A stretch of DNA of 64,000 nt from Hydrogenophilus sp. (GTDB lineage: Bacteria > Pseudomonadota > Gammaproteobacteria > Burkholderiales > Thiobacillaceae), in the NCBI GenBank assembly GCA_020725195.1, contig DYFL01000006.1:1-64000 (forward strand), read 5' to 3'. Both the position numbers and the translations under genes were made by a program. A model generated the notes under the pieces. That model was not told the DNA's origin and did no database searches. It saw nothing but the letters and a program-made list of their open reading frames with translations. The first letter of the stretch is position 1, and each line of letters opens with the position of its first letter. Positions 5,492 to 60,270 of this stretch are shown here, piece after piece.

Positions 5492-5656
5492 TCAGGCGTA
5501 GCGGCGCAGCTTGAAGGACAACACGCCGCTAAGCGGCGTGTTGCGGTGCAGGCCAAGGTGAGCGGAGCGAACGTTAAGTCCGCGCAAGCGGACGGCCGTG
5601 ACCAAAACTCCCGGTCGACCGAAGTTCAGGCGTAGCAGCGCAGCTTGAAGGAAAAC
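5492..5656. repeat. Palindromic module A with flanking 31-bp direct repeats
   Basis: A 31-bp sequence at 5492-5522 is repeated at 5626-5656 (29 of 31 identical); the second copy is the native end of the desaturase gene. Between them lie a perfect 12-bp inverted repeat with a one-base centre (5519-5543, arms CAACACGCCGCT/AGCGGCGTGTTG) and a core, 5541-5604. The core begins TTGCGGTGCAGGC, contains a partly paired arm, then GTCCGC-GCAA-GCGGAC, and ends CGGCCGTGACC. The core aligns base by base with those at 58952-59015, 19730-19785 and 43875-43930 read in the matching orientation. It therefore belongs to a dispersed module family. Confidence 0.8.
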
Positions 5657-17859: not shown

Positions 17860-17942
17860 TATTTTTGGTTTGGACGCGATCTCCCGGCACAGGCAAGTGG
17901 TCGTGATCGTTTTTTAACGCAGTTCGTAGAAGGAGTAGTGAA

Positions 17943-18239
17943 ATGGCTGAACGTATGGGTATTGCGCTGGGCATGATCGAGACCCGTGGTCTGGTTCCCG
18001 CTATCGAGGCGGCTGATGCCATGACCAAGGCCGCCGAAGTGCGTCTGATCGGTCGTCAGTTCGTGGGCGGTGGCTACGTCACCGTCATGGTCCGCGGTGA
18101 GACCGGCGCCGTCAACGCCGCCGTGCGCGCCGGTGCCGACGCCTGCGAGCGCGTGGGTGACGGCCTGGTGGCTGCCCACATCATCGCCCGCGTGCACAGC
18201 GAAGTCGAAGGCATCCTGCCGACCTCCCCCGCCGCCTGA
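17943..18239 (+). CDS. csoS1: Carboxysome major shell protein CsoS1 (copy 1)
   Basis: A 98-residue BMC-H hexamer ([26 protein letters not shown]; pore region [20 protein letters not shown]). It forms the shell facets with a central pore. From position 18018 to 18224 it is identical at nucleotide level to copy 2 (18361-18567), although the first 75 bases differ at many synonymous sites. This points to recent gene conversion. AAGGAGTAG precedes the ATG. Confidence 0.97.
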   Translation: MAERMGIALGMIETRGLVPAIEAADAMTKAAEVRLIGRQFVGGGYVTVMVRGETGAVNAAVRAGADACERVGDGLVAAHIIARVHSEVEGILPTSPAA

Positions 18240-18285
18240 TTTTTCTTCATTCATCGCAACGCGACTACTTACTTAGGAGTTCAAA

Positions 18286-18582
18286 ATGGCTAACACCACT
18301 GGTATTGCCCTGGGCATGATCGAAACCCGCGGCCTGGTTCCCGCGATCGAGGCCGCCGACGCCATGACCAAGGCCGCCGAAGTGCGTCTGATCGGTCGTC
18401 AGTTCGTGGGCGGTGGCTACGTCACCGTCATGGTCCGCGGTGAGACCGGCGCCGTCAACGCCGCCGTGCGCGCCGGTGCCGACGCCTGCGAGCGCGTGGG
18501 TGACGGCCTGGTGGCTGCCCACATCATCGCCCGCGTGCACAGCGAAGTCGAAGGCATCCTGCCGACCGCTCCCTCCGCCTAA
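18286..18582 (+). CDS. csoS1: Carboxysome major shell protein CsoS1 (copy 2)
   Basis: A 98-residue BMC-H hexamer differing from copy 1 only in the first few residues (MANTTGIALG) and at the C-terminus (PTAPSA). It has its own strong ribosome site (TTAGGAG). Tandem near-identical csoS1 genes are normal in alpha-carboxysome operons and raise the dose of facet protein. The A, B or C suffix cannot be assigned safely because the copies are so alike. Confidence 0.97.
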   Translation: MANTTGIALGMIETRGLVPAIEAADAMTKAAEVRLIGRQFVGGGYVTVMVRGETGAVNAAVRAGADACERVGDGLVAAHIIARVHSEVEGILPTAPSA

Positions 18583-18624
18583 TTGAACGGCCCGACACCT
18601 CAACAGATTATTGGAGAAATCCTC

Positions 18625-18963
18625 ATGGCTAACGTGACCGGTGTTGCCCTGGGCATGATCGAAACCCGCGGCCTGGTTCCTGCGATCGAGGCCGCCGACG
18701 CCATGACCAAGGCCGCCGAAGTGCGCCTGGTCGGCCGTCAGTTCGTCGGTGGCGGCTACGTCACCGTGCTGGTGCGCGGTGAGACCGGCGCCGTCAACGC
18801 CGCCGTGCGCGCCGGTGCCGACGCCTGCGAGCGCGTGGGTGACGGCCTGGTGGCTGCCCACATCATCGCCCGCGTGCACAGCGAAGTCGAAGGCATCCTG
18901 CCGACCAAGCCGGACGCCAGCGGCGGCGGCCGCGACGCCGAGATCACCTCGACCCGCAGCTAA
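18625..18963 (+). CDS. csoS1B: Carboxysome shell protein CsoS1, extended (CsoS1B-like)
   Basis: A 112-residue BMC-H protein with the same core but two pore-proximal substitutions ([17 protein letters not shown]) and an added tail, [18 protein letters not shown]. Longer tails distinguish CsoS1B from CsoS1A/C in Halothiobacillus. The reading frame is open upstream, but [10 protein letters not shown] at 18625 follows a clear ribosome site (TTGGAGAAAT). The second half is identical to the other copies over about 120 bases. Confidence 0.93.
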
Positions 18964-19416: not shown

Positions 19417-19678
19417 AGTGCCCGAAGGCTGGGAAGCGCGCGGCAAGCCGCCCACCCTGTTTCGCCGCTTCGGCTTCGAGCGCTACGGCGAGACCCGCGC
19501 CTTCCTCGACGGCCTCGCCGCGTTGAGCGAGGAGACGGGCCTGCACCCGCAGAACGTCAACTTCGGCACCACCTACGTCAACATCACCCTGGAGGCGGCC
19601 GAAGGCGGTCAGCTGGGCGAGGCGGAGCTCGGCTTCGCCGCCCGGATCAATGCCCTGAGCAAAGCAGCGGAGGCCTGA
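19409..19678 (+). CDS. Alpha-carboxysome RuBisCO assembly factor (acRAF, PCD-like)
   Basis: An 89-residue protein of the pterin-4a-carbinolamine dehydratase fold (PTLFRRFGFERYGETRAFLDGLAALSEE, then HPQNVNFGTTYVNITL). PCD-like proteins in cso operons act as RuBisCO assembly chaperones rather than dehydratases; the catalytic HHP motif of true PCD is reduced to LHPQNV. It overlaps the bacterioferritin-like gene by 8 bases. Its stop TGA is the first bases of the inserted repeat that follows. Confidence 0.88.
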   Translation: MAEVPEGWEARGKPPTLFRRFGFERYGETRAFLDGLAALSEETGLHPQNVNFGTTYVNITLEAAEGGQLGEAELGFAARINALSKAAEA

Positions 19679-19886
19679 GAGCTTGTGAATAAACCTACTG
19701 CGCGTCCCGATAGCTGCGTTGGGCGGTACTGGCTTCGGCCGCTTCGCTTAACTTCGGCCTTGCCGAAGTTAGCCTGCGCCGAAACTTCGTTTTCGCTCCT
19801 CGCCTATCCATTTGATATGTCTCGTCGCTGCGTTCCGTCCGCCTTGCTCTCGGGCCGCTCGCTACGGTTTCTTCACAAGCTCTGAG
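19675..19886. mobile_element. MITE-like palindromic element C between acRAF and mcdA
   Basis: A 212-bp non-coding element bounded by CTGAG and a terminal inverted repeat AGCTTGTGAA/TTCACAAGCT; an imperfect inversion of about 45 bp extends inward (TGAAxAAACC shared by both ends). Its core, 19730-19785, read on the minus strand runs TTTCGGCGCAGGCT, then a 9-bp stem AACTTCGGC/GCCGAAGTT around a 3-base loop, then AAGC...CGGCCGAAGCCA. The element at 43820-44094 is about 97 percent identical but has the hairpin loop in the opposite orientation and an additional 63-bp module. The element separates acRAF from mcdA and ends directly against the mcdA ATG. Confidence 0.85.
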
Positions 19887-21801: not shown

Positions 21802-24159
21802 ATGGCCATCCATCTCGAAGAATACCAGGAGCTCCTCGACGACCTGCCCAGCGAGTCGCAGGAGGTGCTGCGCGCCTCGTGGAACGAGGCGGCACGCGTA
21901 TTCTCGGCGCGTGGCCTGGACAACTACCTGAAGGGCGCGGTCGCCCTGCACAACCTCGGGCGCGGCGAGGAGCTGGTCGTCACCTACCTGCAGGACATGC
22001 CCGAGGTGGCCCGCGCCATCGGCGAGGACGTGCTGCCGGACGTGGTCAACTTCCTGCTCTCCATGGCCTCGAAGACCTCGGGCCAGGTGCTGACCCTCAT
22101 CGTCAGCACGGCGCCCCTGGCCGCGCAGCGCCTGGGCGACGAGGATCTGTTCCGCAAGTACCTCAACGTCCTGTCCATCATGCTGGCGCAGGCCTCGCGC
22201 GGCCTGCGGCCCATGCTGGAGAACCTGGACCGGCTGCTGACCCAGCTCACCCTGGGCGGCCTGCGCCGCTGGGTGCAGTGGGGCGCCCAGGCCTACAAGT
22301 CCGACTTCGACGGGCAGCTGCGCTATTTCTCGCTGCAGAGCCCAGACGCCCTGTCGGTGCTGCAGATGGAGCGCAAGGGCACGCTCTTCGTCGACGTGCA
22401 GCGGCGCCTCAACATCTACCTGCGCGCCATGTGGGGCCGCGACTTCTTCCTGCGCCCGACCGCCGGCGACTACGAGTCCCGCGAGGGCCTCAAGCCCTAC
22501 ATCGAGCGCTATGTGATCCACCTCGCCGATGCCTACGACGACTACCGCCCCCTGGGCGAGCAGACGCCGCCCGAGGCCGTGATTCCGGGCGTGGAGGTCT
22601 ACCGCGCCGCCGCCAACCACTGCGCGGCGCACCTGGCCTTCAGCAAAGAGCCGCTGTCGATGCAGATGCTCAACACCACGCAGATGGGCATCATCGAGTG
22701 CATCGAGGACGCCCGCGTCGAGGAGCTGGCCTGCCGCCAGTTCCCGGGCATGCGCGCCGCCTGGCTGGCCCTGCACCCCCCCGCGGACTACGGCGAGCCC
22801 AAGACCGCGGGCGACCTGCTCAACCGCCTGGCCCGCGCCCTCCTGGAAGAAGCCAGCGCCGACCCGCACCCCTGGGTCAGGAAGGGCATCGAACTCTTCC
22901 GCGCCGAGCCCGACCTCTCGACCAACCAGGCGAGCTGGAACATCGGCGTCGAACTGGCCCATCACCTGGGCCAGATCCCCCTGCCCGAGTTCAATGCCCG
23001 CACCGACACCCTGCGCGCCCTCTACCGCGACGACAACCGCACCGTCTGGGAGTCGGAGGAATACGACGAGATGGAAGCCCTGGAGGCGACCTGGCAGCGC
23101 CAACAGCAGGTGCGCAAGAAGGTCAGCGTCATCGAGATGGTGAACGAGGTCAACAACGAGTTCGCCGGCGACGACGCCGAGGAGGTCTGGGTGCTGGAGA
23201 CCCCCTTCTGGCTCGACCAGGAAGGCAAGACCATCAACGAGCTGGAAGGCCGCGAGCCCATCGCCGACCCGGTGCACTACCACGAGTGGGACTACCAGAT
23301 CCAGCTCGAGCGCCCGAGCTGGGTGACGGTGCTGGAGCGCCGGCCCAGGCTGGGCGAGCTGGAGCTGATCGAGAAGATCGTCGAGGACAACAAGCCGGTC
23401 ATCTCGCGCCTGAAGTTCCTGATCGAGTCCATGATCCCGCAGGGCATGCAGCGCATCCGCCGGGTCGAGGACGGCGACGAGCTCGACATCAACGCCGCCG
23501 TGCGCGCCATGATCGACATCCGCATGGGGAGCCAGCCCGACACGCGGATCATGATGCGCCACAAGCGCAGCCTGCGCGACCTGGCGGTGATGGTGCTCTT
23601 GGACATGTCCGAGTCGTCCAACGACAAGGTGCGCGGCCAGGACTTCAGCATCATGGACCTGACCCGCGCGGCCACCGTGCTGCTCGCCGACGCCATGCAG
23701 CGCATCGGCGACCCCTTCGCCCTGCACGGCTTCTGCTCCGACGGCCGCCACGACGTGCACTACTACCGCTTCAAGGACTTCGACCAGCCCTACAACGACC
23801 TGGTCAAGGCCCGCCTGGCGGCGATGAAGGGCGCGTATTCCACGCGCATGGGCGCGGCCCTGCGCCATGCCGGCAGCTACCTCAAGCAGCAGCCCAAGAA
23901 CAAGAAGATCCTGTTCGTCATCACCGACGGCGAACCGGCCGACAACGACGTGCGCGACCCGCAGTACCTGCGCCATGACACCAAGCGCGCGGTCGAGGAG
24001 CTGACCCGCGACGGCATCACCACCTACGCCCTGTCGCTCGACCCGCACGCCGACCAGTACGTCGCGCGCATCTTCGGCGCCAAGAACTTCACGGTGCTCG
24101 ACCACGTCGAGCGCCTGCCCGAAAAGCTGCCCATGCTCTACATGGGATTGACGAGGTAG
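21802..24159 (+). CDS. cbbO: RuBisCO activase adaptor CbbO
   Basis: A 785-residue CbbO, the partner of CbbQ. A long helical N-terminal region is followed by a C-terminal von Willebrand factor A domain from about residue 585. Its MIDAS motif is MVLLDMSESSND (DxSxS), and TDGEPAD lies near 715. The MIDAS is known to contact RuBisCO. The protein ends KLPMLYMGLTR. A decayed copy of this tail lies immediately downstream and a piece of the vWA domain at 26762, evidence of past duplication. Confidence 0.95.
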   Translation: MAIHLEEYQELLDDLPSESQEVLRASWNEAARVFSARGLDNYLKGAVALHNLGRGEELVVTYLQDMPEVARAIGEDVLPDVVNFLLSMASKTSGQVLTLIVSTAPLAAQRLGDEDLFRKYLNVLSIMLAQASRGLRPMLENLDRLLTQLTLGGLRRWVQWGAQAYKSDFDGQLRYFSLQSPDALSVLQMERKGTLFVDVQRRLNIYLRAMWGRDFFLRPTAGDYESREGLKPYIERYVIHLADAYDDYRPLGEQTPPEAVIPGVEVYRAAANHCAAHLAFSKEPLSMQMLNTTQMGIIECIEDARVEELACRQFPGMRAAWLALHPPADYGEPKTAGDLLNRLARALLEEASADPHPWVRKGIELFRAEPDLSTNQASWNIGVELAHHLGQIPLPEFNARTDTLRALYRDDNRTVWESEEYDEMEALEATWQRQQQVRKKVSVIEMVNEVNNEFAGDDAEEVWVLETPFWLDQEGKTINELEGREPIADPVHYHEWDYQIQLERPSWVTVLERRPRLGELELIEKIVEDNKPVISRLKFLIESMIPQGMQRIRRVEDGDELDINAAVRAMIDIRMGSQPDTRIMMRHKRSLRDLAVMVLLDMSESSNDKVRGQDFSIMDLTRAATVLLADAMQRIGDPFALHGFCSDGRHDVHYYRFKDFDQPYNDLVKARLAAMKGAYSTRMGAALRHAGSYLKQQPKNKKILFVITDGEPADNDVRDPQYLRHDTKRAVEELTRDGITTYALSLDPHADQYVARIFGAKNFTVLDHVERLPEKLPMLYMGLTR

Positions 24160-24306
24160 ATGGTGAAGGCAAAACGCCGCGTTGACGCGAGCCCCGTGCC
24201 TGGGCGGCTTGCGCTGGAGGCCGACATCGGCTTGGCCGATGCCGAGCCGCGCCGCGGCGGCCGGCGCCCAAAGCTGCCGATGCCCTACACGGGCCTGAGC
24301 GGGTAA
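24160..24306 (+). pseudogene. Decayed duplicate of the cbbO 3' end (48-codon ORF)
   Basis: An ATG begins right after the cbbO stop and opens a 48-codon frame. Its last residues, KLPMPYTGLSG, repeat the CbbO C-terminus KLPMLYMGLTR. The DNA of the two tails is about three-quarters identical over 36 bases, with stop codons aligned. The rest (MVKAKRRVDASPVPG...) resembles nothing I recognise. I read this as the end of an older or second cbbO copy; an expressed micropeptide is possible but unsupported. Confidence 0.6.
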
Positions 24307-24316
24307 AATCGCGCCC

Positions 24317-43055: not shown

Positions 43056-43823
43056 ATGAGCCATACCCTGCAGGCCGTCATCTTCGACGTCGACGGCACC
43101 CTGGCCGAGACCGAGCGCGACGGCCACCGCCCCGCCTTCAACGCCGCCTTCCGCGAACATGGCCTCGCCTGGGAGTGGGGCGTGGAGCTCTACGGCGAGC
43201 TGCTCGCCGTCACCGGCGGCAAGGAGCGCATCCGCCGCTACATGGAGCGCTACGCCCCGGAGATGCTCGGGCGCGACGATCTCGACGCCTTCATCGCCGG
43301 CCTGCACAAGGCCAAGACCCGGCACTACGTCGCCCTGATGGAGACGGGCGCCATCCCGCCGCGGCCGGGCGTGCTGCGCCTGCTCCGGGAGCTCAAGGCG
43401 GCCGGCCTGCGCATGGCCATCGCCACCACCACCTCGCCCGAGAACGTGGACGCCCTCTTGCGCCACACCCTGCACGAGCTGCCCGAGGGGTTCTTCGAGG
43501 TTATCGGCGCCGGCGACATCGTGCCGGCCAAGAAGCCCGCACCCGACATCTACGCCTGGGTGCTGGAGCGGCTGGACCTGCCGGCCCGCGCCTGCCTCGC
43601 CCTGGAGGATTCCCGCAACGGCGTGCTGGCCGCGCGCGGGGCGGGGCTGCCGGTGCTGGTCGCCGAGAGCAGCTACACGGCGGGGGAGGACTTCACCGGC
43701 GCGCTGGCCGTGCTGTCCGACCTGGGCGAGCCGGGGGCGCCCTTCCGGACGCTGGCGGGCGAGACCCACGGCAAGGCCTGGGTGGACGCCGAGCTGCTGC
43801 GGCGCTGGGCCGAGGCGCCCTGA
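43056..43823 (+). CDS. cbbY: HAD phosphatase CbbY (xylulose-1,5-bisphosphate phosphatase)
   Basis: A 255-residue HAD-superfamily hydrolase. The nucleophile motif is VIFDVDGTLAETERDGHR at the N-terminus, a helical cap follows, then motif II IATTTS, motif III lysine in AKKPAPDIY, and ALEDSRNG near residue 186. CbbY degrades xylulose-1,5-bisphosphate, an inhibitory by-product of RuBisCO. AAGGA precedes the ATG. The gene ends against the large palindromic element, whose first bases include its stop codon. Confidence 0.9.
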   Translation: MSHTLQAVIFDVDGTLAETERDGHRPAFNAAFREHGLAWEWGVELYGELLAVTGGKERIRRYMERYAPEMLGRDDLDAFIAGLHKAKTRHYVALMETGAIPPRPGVLRLLRELKAAGLRMAIATTTSPENVDALLRHTLHELPEGFFEVIGAGDIVPAKKPAPDIYAWVLERLDLPARACLALEDSRNGVLAARGAGLPVLVAESSYTAGEDFTGALAVLSDLGEPGAPFRTLAGETHGKAWVDAELLRRWAEAP

Positions 43824-44094
43824 GAGCTTGTGAATAAACCTACTGCGCGTCCCGATAGCTGCGTTGGGCGGTACTGGCTTCGGCCGCTTCGCTTAACTTC
43901 GGCAAGGCCGAAGTTAGCCTGCACCGAAACTTCGTTTTCGCTCCTCGCCTATCCATTTGATATGTGGCTCCGGCATCACATTCGCTTCGCTCATGTGAGC
44001 CTGCACCGAAACTCGCAGAGCTCGTTTTCTCGTCGCTGCGTTCCGTCCGCCTTGCTCTCGGGCCGCTCGTTACGGTTTCTTCACAAGCCCTGAG
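43820..44094. mobile_element. MITE-like palindromic element D with nested module
   Basis: A 275-bp copy of the element at 19675-19886, again bounded by CTGAG and AGCTTGTGAA/TTCACAAGCC and again starting at a gene's TGA stop. Core D1 is 43875-43930. A further 63-bp module (43965-44027; TGGCTCCGGC...GCCTGCACCGAAAC) sits between GATATG and TCTCGTCG, which are directly joined in the other copy at 19814-19827. Its hairpin arms CACAT/ATGTG differ from D1 but pair. No gene is visible from 43824 to 44206; the open frame across the element is not credible as a gene. Confidence 0.85.
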
Positions 44095-44139
44095 CGGGCC
44101 GCCGACAAAACCGCCGGGATCGGCGAAAATCGCCATTAC

Positions 44140-44194
44140 TGACCCCTGACCCCTGACCCCTGACCCCTGACCCCTGACCCCTGACCCCTGACCC
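44140..44194. repeat. Tandem 7-bp repeat TGACCCC
   Basis: Seven perfect head-to-tail copies of TGACCCC and one imperfect copy (TGACCCA), ending 12 bases before the following start codon. The number of copies is likely to vary by slippage. Related degenerate words occur before cbbO (21728-21801). Confidence 0.95.
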
Positions 44195-55921: not shown

Positions 55922-57115
55922 ATGCACGCGCCGCCCGGCATGTCGCCGCAGGCGGCGCGTTTTTTTGAGCTGCAGGAGATCCTCCTCGCCTGCGAAGGGC
56001 TCTGGCGGCCGGCGCCGTTCCATGTGCGCCGTCCGGGCTGGTGCGAGACCCGGCCGGAGCTGGCCGGGCACGCGCTGGGCCTGCCGGATGCCGAGGTGCA
56101 TCGCCTCGCGGCGGACAACGCCGCGCTCATCGACTGGATCGCCGCCTTCATCCCCGAGCTCGCGGCCCTGCGCCGGCTGATCGGGCTGCCTCGGCTCGAT
56201 GCATCCCGAACCGAGGTGTCGAATCGCCTGGGCTGGCAGATCCCCGGCCGCAAGCTCGCCCAGGTCGAGGCCTTCGCCGAGGCCATGGGCGCGCCCGCGC
56301 GGGCCGTGCTCGAATGGTGTTCCGGCAAGGGGCACCTGGGGCGCTGGCTGGCGTCGAGGTGGGGCGTGCCGGTGGCGAGCCTGGAGCTCGATGCGGCCCT
56401 GTGCGCCGAGGGCGACGCGCTCGCCCGGCGGGCCCGTCTCGCCCAGCGCTTCGTCTGCGCCGATGCGCTCGATCCGGCCTCGGCGCGCCACCTCGCCGGC
56501 CGCCATGCCGTCGCCCTGCACGCCTGCGGCGACCTGCACGTGGCCCTGATCCGCGGTGCGGTGGCTTCAGGCGCGGCGGCCCTGGATCTCTCCCCCTGCT
56601 GCTACTACCGCACGGCGAGCGCGGAGTACCGTCCCCTCAATCCGGATGCGCGCCTCAAGCTCGGCCGCGACGAGCTGCACCTGGCGGTCACGGACACGGC
56701 GACCGCAGGGGCCCGCGACCTCCGCCAGCGCGACCGCGGCATGGCCTGGAAGCTGGCCTTCCTCAACCTGCGGGAGGCGCTCGCCGGCATCGAGCCGGCC
56801 CGGCCCTTCAAGCCGGTCCCCGCGGCCTGGACTTCGCTGGGCTTCGAGGCCTGGTGTCGCCGGCTCGCCCTGCGCGAAGGCATCGCAGTGCCGGCGCACT
56901 ACGACTGGTCCGCGCTCGAGGCCGCGGGCTGGGCGCGCCGGCGCGAGGTGGTGCGCCTGGAACTGGTGCGCCACGTCTTCCGCCGGCCCCTGGAGATCTG
57001 GCTCGCGCTCGACCGGGTGCTCTACCTGGAGCGGGCGGGCTACCGCGTGCGCCTCGCCGAGTTCTGCGACCGCAGCCTCACCCCGCGCAACCTCCTCATC
57101 TCGGCCCGGCGCTAG
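55922..57115 (+). CDS. Class I SAM-dependent methyltransferase
   Basis: A 397-residue protein with an N-terminal helical part and a SAM-binding motif VLEWCSGKGHLGRWLASRWG near residue 135. VALHACGDLHVALI and the motif LDLSPCCYYR near 220 recall the METTL25/RRNAD1-type methyltransferase group. The target is unknown (RNA or protein). Its last 4 bases overlap the end of the RND gene on the other strand. The GC-rich GGCGCGTTTTTTTGAG at 55950 is a T-run inside the gene. Confidence 0.8.
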   Translation: MHAPPGMSPQAARFFELQEILLACEGLWRPAPFHVRRPGWCETRPELAGHALGLPDAEVHRLAADNAALIDWIAAFIPELAALRRLIGLPRLDASRTEVSNRLGWQIPGRKLAQVEAFAEAMGAPARAVLEWCSGKGHLGRWLASRWGVPVASLELDAALCAEGDALARRARLAQRFVCADALDPASARHLAGRHAVALHACGDLHVALIRGAVASGAAALDLSPCCYYRTASAEYRPLNPDARLKLGRDELHLAVTDTATAGARDLRQRDRGMAWKLAFLNLREALAGIEPARPFKPVPAAWTSLGFEAWCRRLALREGIAVPAHYDWSALEAAGWARRREVVRLELVRHVFRRPLEIWLALDRVLYLERAGYRVRLAEFCDRSLTPRNLLISARR

Positions 57116-60100
57116 CCGCCGCGGCGCGCGCGCCTGCGGGCCAGGGCGCCTTCCACCAGGGAATACACCGCCGGCACCACCACCAGGGTGAGCAGGGTGG
57201 AGGAGAGCATGCCGCCGATCACCGCCACCGCCAGCGGGCCGTTGGTCTCGGCGCCGGCGCCCAGGCCCAGGGCGGCAGGCAGCAGGGCGAGGATGACGGT
57301 GAAGGAGGTCATGAGCACCGGCCGCATCCGCGTCGGGCAGGCGTCCCGGAGCGCCGCGTCGATCGCCATGCCTTCCCTGCGCCGCTGGTTGGTCAGGTCC
57401 ACGAGCAGGATGGAGTTCTTCGCCACCAGGCCGATCAGGAGCACCAGCCCGATCATGGAGTAGATGTTCAGGGTGTGGCCGGTCGCCCACAGCGCCACGA
57501 CGCCGCCGATGATGGCGAGCGGCTGCGCCACCATGATGATGAGCGGCTGCAGGAAGGAGTTGAACTGGCTCGCGAGCACCATGTAGAGCAGGACCAGCGC
57601 GAGCACGAAGGCGAAGGCCATGTTGCGGGCGGTCTTCTCGAATTCCTCCGCCTGGCCGACCATCTTCACCCCGTAGCCGGGCGGCAGCAGCTCGGCGGCG
57701 CTCGCCTCGATCCTCGCCACGGCCTCGCCCAGCGGCACGGTCGGGCTGCCGAAGAACTGGGCGGCGTACTGCAGGTCCATGCGGCCGATCACCGCGGGGC
57801 CGAGCCTCTCCTCGAACCGCGCGACGGTGTCCAGGCGCACCAGCTCGCCGCCCGCGGCGCGCAGATAGACCTTGGAGAGGTCGGCGGGGCGCGCGAACTC
57901 GCCGTCCTTCGCCTTGAGCCGCACGTAGTAGCGCTCGCCGTCGCCCGGCTCGTCGTTGTAGCGGGCGACGTCGACGCCGCCGGTGAGCACGTTGACCGCC
58001 AGGGCGACGTCGTTGGAGCCGAGCCCCAGGCTGTTGGCGCGGGTGCGGTCGAGCTCCATCCTGAGCTGCGGCAGGTCGAGCTGCAGGTTCATGTCCAGGC
58101 GGCCGATGCCGGGGTCGGCCGAGAGCCGCTCCTGCATCTGCTTGGCCAGGCGCCCGACCTCCTGCAGATTGGGGCCGGAGACCACGAACTGCAGCGGATC
58201 GCCGCGCTGGCCGCTGACGATGGGCACCGGCGCCGGGAAGGCGCGGGCGCCGGGGATCTGCGCCAGTTCCCGCCTGAGGATGGGGATCAGCTCGTACTGC
58301 CTGAGCGCCCTATCGCCGCGGTCGGCCATGCGCACGAAGGCGAAGGCCTCGTTGACCTGGCCGGCCTGGCCCAGGCCGACGGCGGTGAAATAGGTGGCGA
58401 CCTCCTTGTGCCGGGCGAGGACCTGTTCCACCTCGCGCAGGCGTTCGCTGGTGTAGTCGATGCTGGAGCCCAGCGGGGCCTTCACGTAGACCAGGAAGCG
58501 GCCCTCATCCTCCTCCGGCACGAAGGTCTTGCCGATGTTGGCGAAGAACCAGCCCGAGGTGAGCACGACCAGGGCGGTGGCGAGGACGACCTTCCAGCGG
58601 TGGCCCATGGCGTAGGCGAGCAGGCGCCGGTAGGCGTCGTCCAGGGCGCGGAAGGCGGCATCGAGGGCGCGGTAGACCCGGCCGTGCCGCTGCTTCACGA
58701 CGAGATAGCGCGAGCAGAGCATGGGCGTGAGGGTGAGCGAGACGAACAGCGAGACCAGCACGCCGAAGGTCACCACCACGGCGAAGGACTTGAAGAACAT
58801 GCCGACGATGCCGCCCAGGAACATGACCGGGGCGAAGATGGAGACCAGAGACAGGGTGGCGGCGAGCACGGCGAAGACCACCTCGCGGCTGCCGGAGATC
58901 GCGGCGGTGACGGGGTCGGGGTCGATCGACTCGCGGTGCCGGTGGATGTTCTGGCTCCGGCCGCCCGCATCCGCGGGCTTGACCCCGGCTTCGCCGGCGT
59001 CAGCCTGCGCCGAAACATTTATCGCCATCTCGCGGTGGCGATAAATGTTTTCCAGGACCACGATGGCGTCGTCCACCACCACGCCGATCAGCAGCAGCAG
59101 GGCGAGCAGGGTCAGCGCGTTGAAGGTGTAGCCGAAGAAATACATCACGGCGATGGCGCCCAGCAGCGACACCGGGATGGCGAGCGAGATGATGAGCGTC
59201 GAGCGCCAGCTCTTGAGGAAGAGCAGCACGATGAGCGCGGCGAGCACGGTGCCCTCGACCAGGTGGTCGAGCAGGGCGTCGACCATCTCCTGGATGAACA
59301 GGGCGTCGTTGGAGGCGACCGTGATGGTCATGCCCGGCGGCAGCTGCGGGACGATCTCCTTTTCGAGCTTCTCCTTGACGGCGTCGACGATCGCCACGGT
59401 GTTGGTGTTGGGCACCTTGACGATCCCCAGGCCGATGGTGGGCTGGCCGTTGAAGCGGGCGAGCTGCCGGTAGTCCGACAGGCCGTCCTCCACCTCGGCC
59501 ACGTCCTTGAGCCGGATGGGCGCGCCGGCGCGGTAGGCCACCACCATCTCCTCCAGGGCCTCGACGGAATGGAACTCGAGGTCGAGCTTGAGCAGGTGCT
59601 CGGTGGCCGCGCCGGTGACGAAGCCGCCGGGCAGCTGCACGTGCTCGCGCTCGAAGGCGCCGAGCAGGTCCTGGGCGGTGACCCCCAGCGCCGCCATGCG
59701 CTCAGGCAGCAGGTTGGCGCGGATGGTGCGGTCGCGCCGGCCGCCCAGGCGCACCTCGCCGACGCCGGCGATGGTCTCCAGGCGCTTCTTCACCACGTTG
59801 CGGGCGTGCTGGTTCAGCTGCTGCTGGGTGCGGTCGCCCTGCAGCGCGAGCCACATGATGGGGCTGGAGTTGGTCTCCACCTTGGCCACCACCGGGGGGT
59901 CGGCGTCCCTGGGCAGGCTGCGGAGGACCTGGTTGATCTTGGCCTGCACCTCGTTGAAGGCGACGTCGACGTTCTTGTCCAGATCGAAGGTGATGGCGAC
60001 CACGGACACGCCGGGCGAGGAGGTGGAGTTGACGTGCTGGATGCCCGGCGTGCTGTTGACCGCCGTCTCGATGAGGCCGGTGATGCTGGCGTCGACGATG

Positions 60101-60270
60101 TCGGGGTTGGCGCCCTTGAGCGTGGTGGTGATGGAGATGACGGGGAATTCGATGTAGGGGAAGCGGTCGATGCCGATGCGCAGGAAGCTGATGATGCCGA
60201 AGAGCACCAGCACCCCGGAGAGCATCCAGGCGAGGACGTGGCGCCTGATCGAGAGCTCGGGCAGGGTCAT
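57112..60270 (-). CDS. RND efflux pump inner-membrane transporter with in-frame palindromic insertion
   Basis: A 1052-residue RND (HAE1/AcrB-like) proton-driven exporter. TM1 (LAWMLSGVLVLFGIISFLRIG), the porter domains, TM4 with the proton-relay aspartates in LLIGVVVDDAIVVLENIYRHRE, and the C-terminal half (GLVAKNSILLVDLTNQRR) are all present. Residues about 415-447 (MAINVSAQADAGEAGVKPAD... to NIHRHRE) are an insertion that duplicates NIYRHRE and is encoded by palindromic module B. Relatives go straight from RHRE to DPV. The frame is kept. The gene overlaps the adaptor by 4 bases and belongs to a TetR-controlled operon. Confidence 0.9.
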   Translation of the reverse strand: MTLPELSIRRHVLAWMLSGVLVLFGIISFLRIGIDRFPYIEFPVISITTTLKGANPDIVDASITGLIETAVNSTPGIQHVNSTSSPGVSVVAITFDLDKNVDVAFNEVQAKINQVLRSLPRDADPPVVAKVETNSSPIMWLALQGDRTQQQLNQHARNVVKKRLETIAGVGEVRLGGRRDRTIRANLLPERMAALGVTAQDLLGAFEREHVQLPGGFVTGAATEHLLKLDLEFHSVEALEEMVVAYRAGAPIRLKDVAEVEDGLSDYRQLARFNGQPTIGLGIVKVPNTNTVAIVDAVKEKLEKEIVPQLPPGMTITVASNDALFIQEMVDALLDHLVEGTVLAALIVLLFLKSWRSTLIISLAIPVSLLGAIAVMYFFGYTFNALTLLALLLLIGVVVDDAIVVLENIYRHREMAINVSAQADAGEAGVKPADAGGRSQNIHRHRESIDPDPVTAAISGSREVVFAVLAATLSLVSIFAPVMFLGGIVGMFFKSFAVVVTFGVLVSLFVSLTLTPMLCSRYLVVKQRHGRVYRALDAAFRALDDAYRRLLAYAMGHRWKVVLATALVVLTSGWFFANIGKTFVPEEDEGRFLVYVKAPLGSSIDYTSERLREVEQVLARHKEVATYFTAVGLGQAGQVNEAFAFVRMADRGDRALRQYELIPILRRELAQIPGARAFPAPVPIVSGQRGDPLQFVVSGPNLQEVGRLAKQMQERLSADPGIGRLDMNLQLDLPQLRMELDRTRANSLGLGSNDVALAVNVLTGGVDVARYNDEPGDGERYYVRLKAKDGEFARPADLSKVYLRAAGGELVRLDTVARFEERLGPAVIGRMDLQYAAQFFGSPTVPLGEAVARIEASAAELLPPGYGVKMVGQAEEFEKTARNMAFAFVLALVLLYMVLASQFNSFLQPLIIMVAQPLAIIGGVVALWATGHTLNIYSMIGLVLLIGLVAKNSILLVDLTNQRRREGMAIDAALRDACPTRMRPVLMTSFTVILALLPAALGLGAGAETNGPLAVAVIGGMLSSTLLTLVVVPAVYSLVEGALARRRARRGG
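58930..59050. repeat. Palindromic module B inserted in frame in the RND gene
   Basis: A 99-bp insertion (33 codons). A perfect 15-bp inverted repeat, AAACATTTATCGCCA at 59013-59027 and its complement at 59036-59050 with an 8-base loop, is formed partly by native gene sequence. The core, 58952-59015, on the minus strand runs TTTCGGCGCAGGCT, a GC hairpin around GGCGAAGCC, GTCAAG, a GCCCGC-GGAT-GCGGGC hairpin and CGGCCGGAGCCA. It aligns along its length with module A (5541-5604). The RHRE codons are repeated on both sides (24 bp, about two-thirds identical). Confidence 0.85.

Follow-up and report, generated by a model that had tools for sequence, protein, structure and literature searches.

The window analysed here, a 64-kb stretch of a 108-contig draft genome (G000; other genomes are numbered with G and individual loci with L), carries a gene for an RND efflux permease of the HAE1/MdtB-like type on its minus strand (57112-60270), and in the pump alignment the Asp-Asp pair of TM4 and the Lys of TM10 are invariant. 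The open reading frame (ORF) runs straight through an inserted unit of 99 bp, which is exactly 33 codons (58952-59050, minus strand). This unit is bordered by GA (59051-59052) on one side and GAAC (58948-58951) on the other; the occupied ORF translates as DDAIVVLE-NIYRHREMAINVSAQADAGEAGVKPADAGGRSQ-NIHRHRESIDPDPV, and EMAINVSAQADAGEAGVKPADAGGR is the predicted peptide stretch spanning the insert. The first-pass annotation had described a palindromic repeat inserted in frame that adds 33 residues, which agrees with the length of the unit and the open frame.

On the minus strand, the insert region reads ...GTCCTGGA / AAACATTTATCGCCACCGCGAGATGGCGATAAATGTTT / CGGCGCAGGCT...GGCCGGAGCCA / GAACATCCACCGGCACCGCGAG..., where slashes, here and in motifs such as GA/AAAC, mark unit boundaries. 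A mobile core of 61 bp (58952-59012, minus strand), arranged as CGGCGCAGGCT-P2-AA-P3-GGCCGGAGCCA, is identified by a covariance-model match and by covariation, and it encodes the peptide (V)SAQADAGEAGVKPADAGGRSQ. The remaining 38 bp are pump-derived and consist of a direct plus an inverted copy of the bases after GA/AAAC. The direct copy (O; 59028-59050, minus strand) is AAACATTTATCGCCACCGCGAGA, whose NIYRHRE is now joined to TM4, and the original target copy (D; 58931-58951, minus strand) is GAACATCCACCGGCACCGCGA, which holds the second NIHRHRE and keeps the native GAAC. The inverted copy (I arm; 59013-59027) adjoins the core, reads TGGCGATAAATGTTT on the minus strand and derives from the pump bases after GA/; the two palindrome arms AAACATTTATCGCCA and TGGCGATAAATGTTT (59013-59027 and 59036-59050) are complementary at 15 of 15 positions. 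The long palindrome and the extra NIYRHRE are the pump's own sequence, which is our main finding. The palindrome was spotted in the first reading because the pump stem consists of AAACATTTATCGCCA and TGGCGATAAATGTTT; the assignment of the insert to a palindromic family made there is right for 61 bp, but not for the other 38 bp. Among the matches listed for plasmid records, pump homology alone was found and nothing matched the insert.

Relatives without the insert, as anticipated by the first-pass annotation, were found by aligning related pumps. Empty orthologues of the sister genus (L129, groundwater MAG; L130, Hydrogenophilaceae MAG; L131, Thiobacillus sp. UBA2597; L147) read DDAIVVLENIYRHRE[SA]IDPDPV and are 33 residues shorter at this site, with GAG directly joined to the AAC codon of NIYRHRE. 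Judging by the named pump orthologues, G000 belongs to a Thiobacillaceae-like betaproteobacterium. The 99-bp unit is present at the identical pump position in G002, an independent one-contig genome of the sister genus, whose pump gene outside the insert is 92.6% identical to the empty L131 and 86.4% to G000. This distribution fits either one gain followed by several clean losses or transfer between lineages. The G000 and G002 inserts differ by 9 substitutions, 6 of which form 3 compensatory stem pairs (simulated chance about 6e-5), and third-position changes (6 of 33) are comparable to the gene (22.6%). In unrelated RND pumps from other genera, different copies of the element occupy the same motif. 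Empty sites were found for two targets, the pump and mpl.

The core is a small structured mobile element of 43–64 bp which folds as a branched hairpin, ends in CGGYGC and GAGCCA and belongs to one betaproteobacterial order. A covariance model built from 21 copies detects 74 copies in G000, 48 in G002, 36 in G013, 33 in G010 and 23 in G021, with six clear copies in the window, and a 15-mer of the core has 33 exact copies in G000. In the alignment of 21 distinct 58-mers, standard pairs fill 96% of the paired cells and 9 of 18 pairs change on both sides, a score matched by none of 500 shuffles and lost in slid controls. This covariation supports helices P2 (9 bp) and P3 (5 bp). The closing helix P1 is invariant, so covariation cannot decide on it, and RNAfold pairs the core ends otherwise than in the proposed P1. 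Many cores retain central tandem GA/AG mismatches in P2 (GTGAGC...GCGAAC), like sheared GA pairs. Across the order, 25 of 399 genomes contain the core pattern, spread over 18 genera and many families, and the 368 other genomes sampled from the class have none; the Rfam search gave no match at the gathering score, and a literature search for the core sequence found no text with relevant context.

The anatomy of the pump unit is general. About 50 distinct units, all from this order, follow the pattern GA/NAAN-N10...n10-NTTN-core-CCA/NAAN-N10, in which the sequence to the left of the core is reverse-complementary to that following a GA/ slightly upstream. On its gene side, each target-specific unit repeats the bases after GA/ directly and also carries the first 8–19 of them in inverted form; this inverted copy is taken from the target, so the outer stem of each such unit is built from the host gene. 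Among 145 core copies with distinct left flanks, 42 show a perfect inverted arm that is anchored after an A and 8 nt or longer, compared with 0.86 expected when arms are swapped among copies. The anchor reads GA/ in 39 of these 42, the arm ends exactly at the GA/ boundary, and the following bases are AAAC (24), AAAT (6), then CAAY, GAAC, TAAT and similar. The four end bases track the target (AAAC with GTTT, AAAT with ATTT, CAAC with GTTG, GAAC with GTTC, ATAC with GTAT). For example, GAATAC gives GTAT...ATAC (L126) and GAACTAC gives GTTC (L199). The other roughly 100 flanks have no stem, and many of them are nested in composite repeats or decayed. The duplicated stretch is 22–152 bp long.

The commonest target is the Glu-Asn codon pair GAAAAC. 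Conserved Glu-Asn pairs make up most of the targets, which comprise ftsW (YENR), ccmE (DENYMPP), accB (VENGQPV), serS, rnhA, argF, clpB, pheS, recR (GAATAC), a VWA/CbbO-like gene (GAAAAG) and, in RND pumps, the ENI motif; these names were assigned by recognising sequence motifs. At gene 3' ends, such as those of ftsW (targeted in at least three families of the order), ccmE and accB, a complete second gene end, stop codon included, comes with the unit, and the old end lies downstream. Generally, a gene survives either through duplication of its end past the stop codon or through a unit whose length is divisible by three and which is free of stops. The in-frame carriers are four RND lineages and mpl, namely the HAE1-like pump of G000 (99 bp), an MdtB-like pump (L070; 102 bp), a CusA-like pump with two units (L075; the first is 93 bp), a CzcA-like pump with three units (L291; 99 bp) and mpl of G002 (L071; 84 bp), the last being unoccupied in G013 at WLYENVLRDKWVLAVAGTHGKT. 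The mpl gene of G002 also contains another, unrelated in-frame repeat (GSSSPQPSPACERGGQGQLPSPTCGGGQGG). Assembly gaps with repeats on both sides lie just downstream of the target motif in L148 (SKS3.bin86 pump) and L198 (G000 ccmE), possibly reflecting strain mixtures or collapsed arrays.

The window holds other core copies as well. The copy at the 3' end of a desaturase gene (5544-5604, plus strand) lies between the duplicated gene ends 5492-5522 and 5626-5656, and this unit (5492-5656) has its own 11-bp stem, GA/CAACACGCCGC TAA GCGGCGTGTTG. A decayed copy (24212-24269, plus strand; region 24139-24310) follows the VWA/CbbO-like gene (21802-24159), whose 3' end is duplicated as EKLPMLYMGLTR-stop and KLPMPYTGLSG-stop and is also targeted in other families (L274, L281). 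Composite repeats enclose two more copies on the minus strand (19730-19781; 43875-43926, plus a shorter one, 43965-44008). These composite repeats (19675-19886 and 43814-44100) have CTGAGAGCTTGTGAATAAACC ends and nested cores, and the second has an extra module of about 65 bp. The window also contains three long direct repeats of 300 nt, 88–94% alike (17941-18922), and a heptamer-like tandem repeat TGACCCC (44145-44192).

The structure model of the pump has a mean pLDDT of 63.5, which is low confidence, and its longest internal stretch under pLDDT 50, residues 414-451, falls between the TM4 and TM5 helices. In RND pumps the loop after TM4 is cytoplasmic. On a plain reading of the model, the insert after the TM4 Asp-Asp pair would sit in a flexible cytoplasmic TM4-TM5 loop, and the position after TM4 named by the first-pass annotation is in line with this topology. 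The 33 added residues are apparently tolerated by the predicted loop and show no sign of use for the pump; the best explanation for the retention of the insert is that the loop after TM4 tolerates it.

From the anatomy of this repeat family we infer structure-dependent insertion at a nicked GA/NAAN with fold-back copying of the target, a mechanism that we regard as moderately probable. In this process, the target would be nicked at GA/NAAN, and the free strand of the nicked site would be extended through the core. The complementary core ends may then fold back and copy the flank, giving the n10-NTTN arm, and the new end would re-anneal at a short complementary downstream seed, which would set how long the duplication becomes; the sequence of events is likewise presumed. 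At L265, L283, L288 and, imperfectly, L274, a small set of loci in which the alignment loses quality with distance from the junction, the loop-side portion of the arm is already present, with matching offset, in the displaced native copy, and the outer part is new. This seed pattern and the arm ending at GA/ are what fold-back copying from a nicked GA/NAAN predicts. Tentatively, the family may represent an undescribed class of mobile DNA, defined by the GA/NAAN rule, an outer stem written from the host gene by fold-back and a regenerated gene end; as the host gene end is regenerated, such an element could live in essential genes like ftsW without killing them.

Insertion alone does not explain the divergence between O and D copies, which needs later recombination or import. 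They differ at 48, 38 and 129 sites of codon positions 1, 2 and 3 over 527 codons, totals that are a mixture including some non-coding comparisons. Since O and D of one genome often differ chiefly at third positions, O was not in every case freshly copied from D, and the displaced end was apparently still under selection after they diverged, which points to later movement of units or alleles, probably between lineages. In ccmE of G010 (L200), a tandem duplication begins at GAAAAC; its copies are separated by a GTAG-type REP, and a core is missing.

Three types of candidate mobilising enzyme were searched in the genomes, and none tracks the element. Integron integrase is found in some carriers and in element-free genomes but is absent from G000. 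The reverse transcriptase domain RVT_1 is absent from G013, G021, G010, G018, G050 and G056; an enzyme might conceivably act in trans or have since been lost. The Y1 transposase domain (Y1_Tnp) is unmatched in the carriers G013, G018, G056, G501 and G576, and the one RAYT near a core has its own REPs.

As a less probable but serious alternative, the whole unit [NAAN-N10...gene end...n10-NTTN-core] might move as a circle by cassette-type site-specific recombination, with the host-derived stem acting like a folded single-stranded attC and insertion before the old gene end at GA/NAAN, comparable to phages which rebuild the 3' end of the gene they target. Consistent with this, every stem agrees with the unit that carries it rather than with the displaced copy, units occur two or three in tandem, and attC sites likewise conserve only AAC and GTT (PMC2727003). 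In addition, the O/D differences are mostly synonymous, and D resembles the native ends of relatives (ftsW of G002/G013, ccmE of G021/G045). For ccmE of G018/G042 and G002/G013, two suggestive pairs, divergence jumps exactly after GA/; however, the rise does not clearly exceed the baseline set by unoccupied pairs (ratio 1.39 vs 1.21). The distribution of integron integrase also argues against such recombination, the ends ATAC/GTAT and AAAT/ATTT break the AAC/GTT triplets, and the arms flank the gene end instead of lying downstream of it.

Still less likely is a conventional MITE or REP-like element that a DDE or RAYT transposase mobilises with target-site duplication, the outer palindrome arising by chance or as a terminal inverted repeat. 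In its favour, the element is small, non-coding and multicopy, with imperfect complementary ends and nesting in larger repeats, and YPAL shows variable duplications of 3–26 bp (PMC2229807). However, the outer stem here differs per target and is copied from it, duplications are up to 150 bp long and finish beyond stop codons, and the transposase findings above do not fit a RAYT.

We consider it very improbable that the insert is adaptive, with the peptide selected in the pump and similar peptides functional in other RND pumps. Four RND lineages are occupied at the same motif, and the insert has been retained from the time G000 and G002 separated, or was common to both, without frameshift. But GAAAAC simply encodes the Glu-Asn of the conserved ENI motif, Mpl has this peptide too and it occurs untranslated behind stop codons, and most relatives have no insert; moreover, the third-position divergence of 6 of 33 resembles that elsewhere in the gene, and the substitutions track the pairing of the stems. 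Finally, an assembly or sequencing artefact, which the fragmented home draft and arrays broken at gaps (L019/L198) might suggest and which the first-pass annotation had named as refuting, is practically ruled out by the same in-frame insert in independent genomes, one of them the single-contig G002.

In-frame palindromes are already known from RPEs and from some ERIC and Correia copies (PMC2229807, PMC10969869). The initial claim that such inserts are unusual outside Rickettsiales stands only in part, since reviews report ERIC, Correia and other in-frame fusions (PMC2229807, PMC10969869), and the present family does the same in five gene lineages or more. What appears, provisionally, to be new is the host-derived stem together with gene-end duplication, as no description was found in the openly searchable literature. 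The family offers a natural route to inserted peptides and new C-termini in conserved, essential proteins outside Rickettsia, and the Glu-Asn codon pair of the RND proton-relay helix is a repeated insertion hot spot across pump lineages. Moreover, each host-derived stem is a readable record of its insertion, which makes the mechanism of orphan palindromic repeats testable.

Compared with known systems, the family shares with RPEs that short palindromic repeats lie in frame in conserved ORFs, with the frame open through the hairpin (PMC2229807, PMC10969869). By description, RPEs differ in length (105–146 bp), in their Rickettsiales hosts, in their targets and presumably in sequence, whereas this core is confined to one betaproteobacterial order; the reviews mention neither a host-derived stem nor gene-end duplication. 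Like REP/BIME elements with RAYT, the units are small hairpin repeats, often at gene 3' ends and often arrayed (PMC3733652), but the core has no GTAG or CGTC tag, the stem is copied from the target, and Y1 transposase does not track them. ERIC, Correia and YPAL MITEs are likewise non-autonomous and structured with known intragenic fusions, and YPAL has variable target duplications near dyad symmetry (PMC2229807); the duplication described here is long, is joined to an inverted target copy and follows the GA/NAAN site rule, and neither a short fixed duplication (22–152 bp observed) nor constant terminal inverted repeats, as in DDE-type MITEs, were seen. With integron attC sites, the element shares structure-defined ends, an arbitrary stem sequence, an AAC/GTT-like boundary and tandem arrays, in which the newest unit apparently comes first, as in integrons. 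It differs in having no RYYYAAC/GTTRRRY boxes (the ends are CCA-NAAN and NTTN-CGG), no consistent IntI and a gene end as payload. IS1272 also chooses inverted-repeat targets by structure (PMC5678879), but it replaces an existing stem-loop without duplication, whereas the element described here makes the stem.
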